This document shows, in pieces, positions 33,055 through 45,954 of a stretch of 64,000 bases of DNA. Position 1 is the stretch's first letter; every line of letters starts with the position of its first letter. A program made the translations under genes and the position numbers. The notes beneath the pieces are model-generated. The model saw only the letters and a list, made by a program, of their open reading frames with translations. It ran no database searches and was not told where the DNA came from. The DNA is from Caldicellulosiruptor changbaiensis (GTDB lineage Bacteria; Bacillota; Thermoanaerobacteria; Caldicellulosiruptorales; Caldicellulosiruptoraceae), in NCBI RefSeq assembly GCF_003999255.1, contig NZ_CP034791.1:2706501-2770500 (forward strand). Direction: 5' to 3'.

Positions 33055-34073
<1,019 letters not shown>

Positions 34074-34103
34074 AATATAAGGTAAAATCTATAAAAAGGG
34101 CAA
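34074..34103 (-). promoter_or_regulatory. Candidate nifH promoter
   Basis: On the minus strand TTGCCC and TATATT are 18 bp apart. The -35 box overlaps copy 1 of the repeated GGCAA...CAAAA motif. A sigma-54 GG-N10-GC box was not seen here. Confidence 0.5.
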
Positions 34104-34266
34104 CAGCAGACACCAAAATTTTTGGGTTTTCTCAAAACTTTTGATAACACGTGGCAATGGCAGGCACAAAACACATTATTCACTTTTTCAAAAGAGAGGG
34201 GCGCAAGAGGCAAGGCAGATTTATTATCCTCTCAATTTGGGGGTGTTTTGGATGCCTGCTGTTGCC
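34099..34266. repeat. Three copies of a ~20-bp motif upstream of nifH (possible operators)
   Basis: Copies: GGCAACAGCAGACACCAAAA (34099-34118, plus), GGCAATGGCAGGCACAAAA (34153-34171, plus) and GGCAACAGCAGGCATCCAAA (34247-34266, minus strand). Copies 1 and 3 are inverted and could also pair as RNA or DNA. The placement at the -35 region and upstream suits a repressor or activator that controls nif. Confidence 0.5.
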
Positions 34267-34318
34267 AAATTGTAAGCGGGAAACTATTGACCGAAGATAA
34301 AGGCAAGTCCCCCAAATT

Positions 34319-34675
<357 letters not shown>

Positions 34676-34701: not shown

Positions 34702-36039
34702 TTACTTAACCGTTTGAGATTTTATTACAAAGTCGCCATACGCTGCTGTGCCATGTTCTGTAACATCCAGACCTTCTATCTCTTCCTCTTCAGAGACTCT
34801 CAAACCAACTGTGATTTTTATAACTGCGAATAGGATGAAAGCTGTGATTGTTGTCCAGATAAACGTTGAAACAACTCCGGCAAGCTGCACTAAAAATTGT
34901 TTTATTCCACCGCCATAGAAAAGACCTCCATCTGTTGCAAAAAGACCAACCATCAGTGTACCAAACGCACCACATACGCCATGCACTGAGATTGCACCGA
35001 CTGGGTCATCAATTTTTAGCTTTTTGTCAATGAACTCAACAGCGACAACTACAAGTATTCCTGCAAGACCACCAATAATTGCTGCACCCCAAGCGTTAAC
35101 TGATGCACATCCTGCTGTAATTGCAACAAGACCAGCCAAAGCACCGTTTAGTGTCATACTAACGTCTGGTTTTTTGTACTTTAGCCATGTATATATCATT
35201 GCTAAGTTTGCACCCATCGCAGCTGCCAAGTTGGTATTGACTGCAATATCGCCGATTTTGTCGTTCATACCTGAAAGAGTAGATCCTGGGTTGAATCCAA
35301 ACCAGCCAAACCACAAGATAAATGTGCCAAGAGCTGCTAAGGTTATGCTATGGCCTGGGATAGCATTGACCTTGCCATCTTTTGTGTATTTTCCTATTCT
35401 CGGTCCAAGCATTGCGGCACCTATCAGTGCACTCCAGCCACCAACAGAATGTACAACAGTTGAACCTGCAAAGTCAATAAAGCCGAGCTTGCTAAGCCAG
35501 CCGCCACCCCATGCCCAGTGACCTACAACAGGATATATTATGAATGAAATAACTGCGCTGTAGATACAGTAAGCAATGAACTTTGTTCGCTCAGCCATAG
35601 CACCAGAGACAATCGTTGCGGCTGTTGCTGCAAATACTGTCTGGAACATCAAGAATGATGTAAGCGGAATTGAAAGCCCTAAATGTTTGAATGAGTCGCT
35701 CAAGAAAAATCCTGACGTTCCTATAAAACCACCAGCGTCTTTGCCAAACATGAATGCAAACCCGAACAACCAGAAAATTACAGAACCAATTGCAAAGTCC
35801 ATTAAGTTTTTCATCACAATGTTGCTTGCATTTTTCGCTCTGGTAAAACCTGCTTCAACCATTGCAAACCCTGCTTGCATGAAGAAGACCAAAAACGCTG
35901 TAATAAGAACCCACACATTATCAATTGCTGTTGCAACCTTTTCAGGTGTAATCTGGTCAGCTTTTGCTGGGCTAAATCCTAATATCAAAGCAAGGATTAA
36001 AAGTACAATACCAAGCAGGATTTTAAAACTTCTATTCAT
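34702..36039 (-). CDS. amtB: Ammonium transporter AmtB
   Basis: The 445-residue protein has an N-terminal signal-like helix (ILLGIVLLILALILGFSPAKA) and eleven further membrane helices. Amt words: FFMQAGFAMVEAGFTRAKNA, DFAIGSVIFWLFGFAFMFG, GGWSALIGAAMLGPRIGKY, LGTFILWFGWFGFNPGS, and DDPVGAISVHGVCGAFGTL. The pore His pair (VHSVGG and VHGVCG) is present. The C-terminal EEEIEGLDVTEHGTAAY is the GlnK-docking tail. It imports ammonium and, with GlnK, reports nitrogen status to the nif system downstream. Confidence 0.96.
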   Translation of the reverse strand: MNRSFKILLGIVLLILALILGFSPAKADQITPEKVATAIDNVWVLITAFLVFFMQAGFAMVEAGFTRAKNASNIVMKNLMDFAIGSVIFWLFGFAFMFGKDAGGFIGTSGFFLSDSFKHLGLSIPLTSFLMFQTVFAATAATIVSGAMAERTKFIAYCIYSAVISFIIYPVVGHWAWGGGWLSKLGFIDFAGSTVVHSVGGWSALIGAAMLGPRIGKYTKDGKVNAIPGHSITLAALGTFILWFGWFGFNPGSTLSGMNDKIGDIAVNTNLAAAMGANLAMIYTWLKYKKPDVSMTLNGALAGLVAITAGCASVNAWGAAIIGGLAGILVVVAVEFIDKKLKIDDPVGAISVHGVCGAFGTLMVGLFATDGGLFYGGGIKQFLVQLAGVVSTFIWTTITAFILFAVIKITVGLRVSEEEEIEGLDVTEHGTAAYGDFVIKSQTVK

Positions 36040-36622
36040 TTTTAACCCTCCTCATTTAATTGAAAGTTGATTTGAAGTTGGAAAACACTTTTTCACACCT
36101 CCCTGCGCCCCTCTTTTCAGAAATAAATTTATGTGGTATAATAAAAAAGCTATTTTAAAGAAAAAAGTAAAAGAAAAAACATTGCAAATGGGTTGTGTGT
36201 GGAGTATTATCCCATATGGGGTAAAAGAAGTATTGAATAAATTGCGGTAGTAATTAAAAAAGGCAAAGGCAACCTTTTGAAAGGCGCCTTTGCCTTTCTT
36301 TCTTTATTCTCTTTGTTTACTCTCATTATATTCTTCATTTTGCAATTTGTCAATATCAAAATTGCATTTTAATTTTTATAAAGTTTTTGAGGTAATTTTT
36401 AATTGTTTTGGTTACAATATATAAAAAGTAATTTATATTTGTACAATTTGTGTTTCGCTAATTCAACCTTGTAATACTCTATTTGTCAATTACTGCCTGA
36501 AAACAAATACGAGCAACATAACCTGAGATAAGTTATTTAAATCTAAATTAAAATTTAATTCAAGCAAATACGTTTATGTTATAATGATTACAGAAGAAAA
36601 AACAAAAAAGGAGTCAGTTTTG
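36040..36622. other. Divergent intergenic region between amtB and the AbiEii-like gene
   Basis: This region holds a TATAAT (36139-36144, plus strand) after a weak -35, a 10-bp palindrome CCCATATGGG (36211-36220), a strong terminator-like hairpin (36256-36300) and, at the right end, TATAAT at 36580-36585 for the AbiEii-like gene. Between the first TATAAT and the hairpin lie about 150 nt with no reading frame of note, so a short non-coding transcript is possible. The amtB promoter itself is not clear. Confidence 0.4.
36256..36300. terminator. Terminator-like hairpin, readable from both strands
   Basis: AAAGGCAAAGGC pairs with GCCTTTGCCTTT; inner AACCTTTTGAAAGG can pair too. It is followed by CTTTCTTT on plus and TTTTTTAATT on minus. 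No annotated gene points into it from either side at short range. Confidence 0.6.
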
Positions 36623-42171: not shown

Positions 42172-43161
42172 TTAGGAATATTCCGTATATTCTTCTCTTA
42201 TCTTCTTTATCCTCTCAATCTCAACTCCAGTTGCTTCAGCTATAAAATTATCATCAAACCCTTTTTGTATAAGCCTTCTCACAATTTCCTCTTCTTTCCG
42301 CTGTATACCTTCCTTTATACCTTCCTTTATACCTTCCTGTATACCTTCCTCATAGCCCTTTTCTTTGCCTTTTTCTTCTGCTTCTCTGTAATACTCCTGT
42401 ATCAGCTGCTGAACATTGAATATAAACTCTCCCACATCTTCCACCCCCTCAGCTTCTATCTTCTTCAGCAGTTCATCTATCTTGCTTTCAATCTCCTCTC
42501 TCACCTGCGGTTTTACTATCCTCAAAAGCCATGAACAAAACACTTTTACCTGCACCTGTGGTAACTTACAAACATATTCTGACACTTCACTGAGCTTCTC
42601 TACAAACTCCTCTGCATTCCTTCTTGACTTTTCTAAATACAAAATAATACTTAAAAGGTCTAACCTGCTTCTTAGCTTTTCATCATCAAGCCTGTTTACA
42701 TCAACCAAAATATAGTTAAACATATCATCCTTGAATATATCAAAACCTTTAAATATCTGGGTCGGTATATTCCACCCGCTTCTACCATTGTACAGCACTA
42801 TCGGAACAATCGGCGGTAATAACTCGTCTCCTTTCTCTTCCATGTGCCTTTTCCATATAAGAGTCATATACTCAAATAACCTTCTTGGCATATTCCTGTC
42901 CGCAGTAGATTGCGGTTCTATTAACACATAAAAGTATATGTCCGTATCTTCTAATCTCGCTCTATATATCACATCTGCTTCTTTTTCCACAAACTCGTCC
43001 TTGATAAAACTCCTGTCAACAAACTCTAAACTCTCAGCATCTATCCTGTTTACCCATTCTCTATTTATATTGCTCCTTAAAAAGTTTAAAAATACTTCCT
43101 TGAATTGAAATAATCTCTTGAATGTTAAATCATACTGGTTATGCGGTACTTTCTGCTGCAT
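42172..43161 (-). CDS. Rpn-family recombination-promoting nuclease, copy 1
   Basis: The 329-residue protein is a PD-(D/E)XK nuclease of the Rpn/PDDEXK transposase-like family. The N-terminal third opens HNQYDLTFKRLFQFKEVFLNFL; the nuclease core is EKEADVIYRARLEDTDIYFYVLIEPQS (D-x..E-x-Q), then RLFEYMTLIW and PIVLYNG. A coiled region follows with a tandem four-residue repeat (EGIQEGIKEGIKEGIQRKEEE) and a short helix-turn-helix-like end (EEIVRRLIQKGFDDNFIAEAT). Rpn proteins promote RecA-independent recombination in E. coli. Copy 1 has one more GIKE unit than copy 2. Confidence 0.85.
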   Translation of the reverse strand: MQQKVPHNQYDLTFKRLFQFKEVFLNFLRSNINREWVNRIDAESLEFVDRSFIKDEFVEKEADVIYRARLEDTDIYFYVLIEPQSTADRNMPRRLFEYMTLIWKRHMEEKGDELLPPIVPIVLYNGRSGWNIPTQIFKGFDIFKDDMFNYILVDVNRLDDEKLRSRLDLLSIILYLEKSRRNAEEFVEKLSEVSEYVCKLPQVQVKVFCSWLLRIVKPQVREEIESKIDELLKKIEAEGVEDVGEFIFNVQQLIQEYYREAEEKGKEKGYEEGIQEGIKEGIKEGIQRKEEEIVRRLIQKGFDDNFIAEATGVEIERIKKIREEYTEYS

Positions 43162-44976: not shown

Positions 44977-45954
44977 TTAGGAATATTCCGTATATTCTTC
45001 TCTTATCTTCTTTATCCTCTCAATCTCAACTCCAGTTGCTTCAGCTATAAAATTATCATCAAACCCTTTTTGTATAAGCCTTCTCACAATTTCCTCTTCT
45101 TTCCGCTGTATACCTTCCTTTATACCTTCCTGTATACCTTCCTCATAGCCCTTTTCTTTGCCTTTTTCTTCTGCTTCTCTGTAATACTCCTGTATCAGCT
45201 GCTGAACATTGAATATAAACTCTCCCACATCTTCCACCCCCTCAGCTTCTATCTTCTTCAGCAGTTCATCTATCTTGCTTTCAATCTCCTCTCTCACCTG
45301 CGGTTTTACTATCCTCAAAAGCCATGAACAAAACACTTTTACCTGCACCTGTGGTAACTTACAAACATATTCTGACACTTCACTGAGCTTCTCTACAAAC
45401 TCCTCTGCATTCCTTCTTGACTTTTCTAAATACAAAATAATACTTAAAAGGTCTAACCTGCTTCTTAGCTTTTCATCATCAAGCCTGTTTACATCAACCA
45501 AAATATAGTTAAACATATCATCCTTGAATATATCAAAACCTTTAAATATCTGGGTCGGTATATTCCACCCGCTTCTACCATTGTACAGCACTATCGGAAC
45601 AATCGGCGGTAATAACTCGTCTCCTTTCTCTTCCATGTGCCTTTTCCATATAAGAGTCATATACTCAAATAACCTTCTTGGCATATTCCTGTCCACAGTA
45701 GATTGCGGTTCTATTAACACATAAAAGTATACATCCGTATCTTCTAATCTCGCTCTGTATATCACATCTGCTTCTTTTTCTACAAACTCGTCCTTGATAA
45801 AACTCCTGTCAACAAACTCTAAACTCTCAGCATCTATCCTGTTTACCCATTCTCTATTTATATTGCCCCTTAAAAAGTTTAAAAATACTTCCTTGAATTG
45901 AAATAATCTCTTGAATGTTAAATCATACTGGTTATGTGGTACTTTCTGCTGCAT
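44977..45954 (-). CDS. Rpn-family recombination-promoting nuclease, copy 2
   Basis: The 325-residue protein differs from copy 1 at a few positions only (for example S30 to G, I74 to V, A86 to V) and lacks one GIKE unit. The nuclease core (EADVIYRARLEDTDVYFYVLIEPQS) is intact. Both copies look expressible, each with the same upstream region (TATAGC...ATTATACC) and terminator. Confidence 0.85.
   Translation of the reverse strand: MQQKVPHNQYDLTFKRLFQFKEVFLNFLRGNINREWVNRIDAESLEFVDRSFIKDEFVEKEADVIYRARLEDTDVYFYVLIEPQSTVDRNMPRRLFEYMTLIWKRHMEEKGDELLPPIVPIVLYNGRSGWNIPTQIFKGFDIFKDDMFNYILVDVNRLDDEKLRSRLDLLSIILYLEKSRRNAEEFVEKLSEVSEYVCKLPQVQVKVFCSWLLRIVKPQVREEIESKIDELLKKIEAEGVEDVGEFIFNVQQLIQEYYREAEEKGKEKGYEEGIQEGIKEGIQRKEEEIVRRLIQKGFDDNFIAEATGVEIERIKKIREEYTEYS

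Follow-up and report, generated by a model that had tools for sequence, protein, structure and literature searches.

The window analysed here, 64,000 nt of the Caldicellulosiruptor changbaiensis genome, carries a nif operon in which nifH is followed by two nifI/PII-type genes, nifD, nifK, nifE, nifB and then molybdate-transport-like and nifV-like genes. In the intergenic region between glnB and nifH, three near-identical 14-base words, copies of GGCAAYRGCAGRCA (sites A, B and C), lie within 168 bp. The features of the locus, by window position, are:

33055–33876, minus strand: nifH, which opens the nif operon (genes named after their sequences and PMC8209448).
33982–34055, minus strand: structured 5' leader of nifH, 74 nt, with three nested helices and the outer stem CAGGGGGAGA/UCUCCCCCUG.
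34083–34092, minus strand: ATAGATTTTA, invariant and, of the candidates for the nifH -10 element, the best conserved (putative assignment).
34099–34112, plus strand: site A, GGCAACAGCAGACA, reversed relative to nifH; a 14-bp invariant run that overlaps the putative -35/spacer region.
34153–34166, plus strand: site B, GGCAATGGCAGGCA, reversed relative to nifH, within a 23-bp invariant block (34152–34174).
34195–34209, minus strand: element D, CTCTTGCGCCCCTCT, invariant in nine of nine genomes, about 44–45 bp upstream of B and part of a module that is duplicated in two genomes.
34253–34266, minus strand: site C, GGCAACAGCAGGCA, forward relative to nifH, within a 32-bp invariant block (34240–34271).
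34319–34657, minus strand: glnB (PII), upstream of the array in the window genome and itself preceded by amtB (34702–36039).

A and B are direct copies and C is inverted relative to them, which confirms the two direct and one inverted copies in about 170 bp described by a sequence-only reading of this DNA. The motif core reads GGCA-N6-GRCA, an asymmetric and non-palindromic 10-bp direct repeat; B and C additionally have CAAAACAC in common, offset by 2 bases. The AAAA tail that the earlier reading counted as part of the motif falls outside the conserved core, as A is followed by CCAAAA in one clade of the genus and by TCTAAG in the other.

A search of the whole 2.9-Mb genome for GGCAAYNGCAGRCA returned three exact matches, which are A, B and C. 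All lie in the non-coding DNA upstream of nifH, disposing of the possibility, raised with the original observation, that copies occur randomly in coding DNA. One-mismatch matches number 15 genome-wide, and the nine examined are all inside open reading frames. Allowing up to two mismatches gave 119 matches, about 100 of them listed, with 95 distinct sites outside the nif locus; among these listed sites, 91 of 95 fall inside frames open for at least 90 codons; the remaining four are apparently unrelated, with no link to nitrogen genes. The array motif is therefore not a common codon-driven word that recurs by chance. No convincing further target was found in intergenic DNA of the window genome among the matches listed at this threshold. 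Within the intergenic DNA examined, GGCAAYRGCAGRCA belongs to the nifH promoter region.

Twelve genomes of the genus were searched, nine with nifH and three without; the latter three also lack an adjacent glnB. Conservation in related species, the check proposed with the first description of the motif, bore it out: A, B and C precede nifH in all nine nifH-bearing genomes, in identical order and orientation. In an alignment of these genomes from C to the nifH start, every core column is invariant (42/42); outside the cores this holds for 205 of 368. When triplets of 14-column windows were drawn at random 20,000 times, no draw equalled the core. The longest uninterrupted stretches of invariant columns span 32 bp at C and 23 bp at B, followed by element D (15 bp), A (14 bp) and ATAGATTTTA (10 bp). 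The nine genomes fall into just two clades, and conservation and phasing are therefore worth few independent events. Exact non-nif matches in G006 and G007 were considered as targets and rejected, both being in coding sequence. Of the three nif-less genomes, G002 is the one whose matches were checked in full, and it has no exact match.

The distance between A and B is 53–54 bp in one clade and 42–43 bp in the other, that is, 5.05–5.14 or 4.0–4.1 turns at 10.5 bp per turn. The spacer has thus changed by one helical turn, so that rotational register is kept. C lies 96–100 bp from B and 139 to 154 bp from A. The A–B phasing fits proteins that touch on one face of the DNA; it probably reflects one indel event and, as a single test, is suggestive.

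The best sigma-A-like match at the promoter is TTGCCC, 18 bp before TATATT. The claim that one copy overlaps the -35 holds only in part: A does overlap TTGCCC, yet TATATT, the -10 that goes with it, is not conserved in the second clade, and there is no good conserved -35. The invariant ATAGATTTTA lies 20–21 bp from the start of A. Downstream, every one of the nine genomes can form the leader fold; three pairs differ at both positions between clades, and 96.7% of cells are paired versus at most 55% for slid versions. The compensatory changes separate only two clades and thus amount to few events. The leader could protect nif mRNA at 70–78 °C or could be regulatory. No Rfam family scored above threshold in the leader or the array region.

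Two other elements near the array were set aside. Element D (TGCGCCCCTCT) was rejected as a common nitrogen motif, since its other genus-wide matches examined lie at ribosome-binding sites or start-codon regions of unrelated genes (AGGGGGCGCAAG directly before ATG being the ribosome-binding-site type); an inverted look-alike is present in the amtB leader (36101–36113). An inverted repeat at 34234–34318 was discarded, its left arm not being conserved. Elsewhere in the window, two near-identical ORFs of ~327 aa (42172–43161 and 44977–45954) flank a chemotaxis-receptor-like gene and by eye look Rpn/PD-(D/E)XK-transposase-like.

In two genomes, G008 and G011, genes for a urea ABC transporter (urtABCDE) and urease, named by inspection of the protein sequences, lie between glnB and nifH. 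The corresponding features are:

L056:1865–10570 and L055:2346–12072: urtABCDE–urease insertion, flanked by exact 83/80-bp direct repeats.
34195–34277 of the window, minus strand: module of C and D, 83 bp; in G011 exact direct copies of it flank urt-ure at either end, and in G008 the corresponding repeat is 80 bp long.

No urease accessory genes were seen inside either insertion, and among the 12 genomes urtA was found in these two only. The duplication places a fourth motif copy, C', between glnB and urtA in both genomes. C' is a single copy more than 100 bp upstream of the urtA start codon, and A and B are not duplicated there; any urtA promoter would probably lie downstream of C'. The module repeats are identical within each genome and differ between G008 and G011, which suggests that gene conversion or repeated exchange took place. 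Recombination between them would excise urt-ure and leave the arrangement of the window genome. In each genome the repeat around C' matches the nif copy exactly, so C' may reflect how the operon was inserted and not selection for the site. G008 has, between C' and its intact urtA, a transposase gene and, beside it, a partial urtA that duplicates the N-terminal part (117 aa, 96% identical; L055:9783–11949).

The search for a wider regulon, covering amtB, the ANTAR locus and the intergenic DNA among the listed matches, gave no further members. Upstream of amtB, which the sequence-only reading had named as a possible target, the best match differs at 4 positions, a level also reached by shuffled sequence, and no match with fewer than 3 mismatches lies near the ANTAR locus of the genus. 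In nine nifH-bearing genomes of the class outside the genus, the best matches within 600 bp upstream of nifH have 4–5 mismatches. A scan of 84,980 species genomes (a collection that may leave out records near the window genome) for paired direct sites yielded three hits (a Thermoplasmata archaeon, a Paenibacillus and a Streptomyces), and the stretches examined contained no convincing nifH. On present sampling, the array appears to be a trait of the genus.

We consider it probable that A, B and C are operators of one sequence-specific transcription regulator dedicated to the nif operon. The site is repeated and concentrated at one promoter, conserved across species, and keeps its phasing across a spacing change, as in an operator array. 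A nitrogen regulator fits, as two genomes also have a motif copy ahead of the urea-uptake operon; finding the module in front of a second nitrogen-scavenging operon argues for nitrogen rather than molybdenum as the signal, unless it is a by-product of the insertion. The main part of the earlier proposal, an operator of an unknown nitrogen regulator, is thus supported (the sites are conserved, non-coding, match none of the known patterns tested and have a copy before urt), whereas its extension to a wider regulon that includes amtB found no support. Two regulator molecules or dimers would bind A and B on the same helix face, 4 or 5 turns apart, and contact each other; a third, bound some 9 turns farther upstream at C, would probably join them through bending of the DNA. 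Occupancy of A over the -35/spacer could recruit RNA polymerase under nitrogen limitation. Recruitment seems somewhat likelier than blocking because A covers the -35/spacer of a promoter without a good conserved -35.

Physiological data are available from three strains, in which acetylene reduction drops with ammonium from 610 to 18.8, from 107 to 0.257 and from 363 to 216 nmol per 10^6 cells per 24 h (PMC8209448 Table 1); the effect is weak in C. kronotskyensis (PMC8209448). Given this weak effect and possible post-translational control by NifI1/NifI2, the ammonium data alone are insufficient to establish transcriptional control.

The same sites could instead serve a repressor: with ammonium in good supply, it would draw A, B and C into a loop that covers the promoter, in the manner of NrpR or GalR-type looping. 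We regard this as rather unlikely. The position of A in the -35/spacer region would let a protein bound there keep polymerase out, and the inverted, distal C and the helical phasing of A and B suit a loop. However, a promoter without a conserved good -35 fits activation better, and at urtA the solitary, distant C' would probably have any promoter downstream of it.

Control at the RNA level, in which C pairs with B or A in an amtB–glnB read-through transcript and switches nifH expression by attenuation, is very improbable. C can pair with A along 14 bases, one of the pairs being G-U, and a structured leader lies just downstream of the array, but C–B pairing is broken by two mismatches that persist in nine of nine genomes, and no core shows a compensatory change. 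Moreover, A overlaps the best promoter-like sequence, the C–A distance varies, and the region has no terminator-like site on the nifH strand and no Rfam match. We give still less credence to control of nifH by the ANTAR antiterminator of the genus, with the repeats incidental. One ANTAR protein is encoded in each of the 12 genomes, and the relevant element upstream of amtB is:

36256–36297, minus strand: amtB leader hairpin with the hexaloop AAAGGC overlapping a terminator; ANTAR-like and kept in most of the genus.

This loop matches the A1/G4 hexaloop rule for ANTAR targets (PMC3369931). Yet on the nifH strand, the DNA from the array to nifH holds neither such a hairpin nor a terminator-like site, the predicted leader fold contains no A1/G4 hexaloop hairpin, and the repeats are conserved too strongly to be regarded as incidental. 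Least credible of all is that the repeats are recombination or insertion sites from mobile DNA: exact direct repeats containing C and D do flank urt-ure, but A and B are not part of them, no integrative-element recombinase gene was seen linked to them, and the array is kept in genomes without the insertion.

If the three sites are operators of a dedicated regulator, the gene for that protein is not obvious, as no clear candidate lies within the conserved nif cluster. An XRE/YgiT-type protein adjoining the nifV-like gene was rejected, being present in only one clade. In three genomes, genes for aconitase, isocitrate dehydrogenase and a GntR/FadR-type regulator follow nif (L199:4935–8669, L200:12035–15774 and L202:2470–6245); the two enzymes constitute a route to 2-oxoglutarate beside nif, and in the window these three genes do not adjoin nif. 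GntR/FadR-type proteins are known for short palindromic sites, and this gene was therefore not adopted as the array regulator and is only a lead. No suitable nitrogen regulator appears in the regulon study of C. bescii (PMC8579813), a species that lacks nif genes.

It is conceivable, at slightly less than even confidence, that a nif regulator of a class new to nif recognises GGCAAYRGCAGRCA and acquired the urea-uptake/urease operon through duplication of the operator module, and that together with the leader it works independently of NifA, NrpR, GlnR and ANTAR. How nif is switched in anaerobic Firmicutes without NifA/sigma-54 has been called unresolved, and the Caldicellulosiruptor nitrogenase is possibly of an early-branching type, active up to 78 °C (PMC8209448). 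A 14-bp target in three copies is a direct bait for isolating the regulator, and the repeat-flanked urt-ure exemplifies a natural route by which a new operon can acquire the nif control region.

The statement that no known nif regulator site matches the motif held for the patterns tested: the intergenic region (33877–34318) contains no NifA, GlnR/TnrA, NrpR, NtrC, CRP, FNR or Rex pattern. The array nevertheless resembles several established systems. Like the NifA upstream activating sequences of Proteobacteria, which work with sigma-54, it places several sites upstream of nifH with possible activation from a distance; however, TGT-N10-ACA is absent from this region, none of the 12 genomes encodes the sigma-54 DNA-binding domain PF04552, which a control search did detect in 4 of 14 reference genomes, and Caldicellulosiruptor is reported to have no nifA (PMC8209448). 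With NrpR of methanogens it shares nitrogen-responsive operators, more than one per promoter, at a nif promoter, but the GGAA-N6-TTCC operator is absent here, and the NrpR domain PF01995, detected in 2 methanogens as a control, occurs in none of the 12 genomes. GlnR/TnrA of Bacilli, including the nif control of Paenibacillus, likewise exemplifies Firmicute nif control from near-promoter sites and is set apart by site pattern: TGTNA-N7-TNACA is absent here and the motif is non-palindromic. ANTAR antitermination has its protein and an amtB hairpin in this genus, and GCAAAGGCGC ANTAR-like hairpins precede nifH in several other genomes of the class (L046–L050, L053 and L054); it acts on RNA, whereas the nifH leader of this genus has no such hairpin. 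In its architecture, GGCA-N6-GRCA used in both orientations presumably stands closer to the direct-repeat operators of OmpR/PhoB- or AraC-type regulators than to the sites of palindrome-binding proteins.
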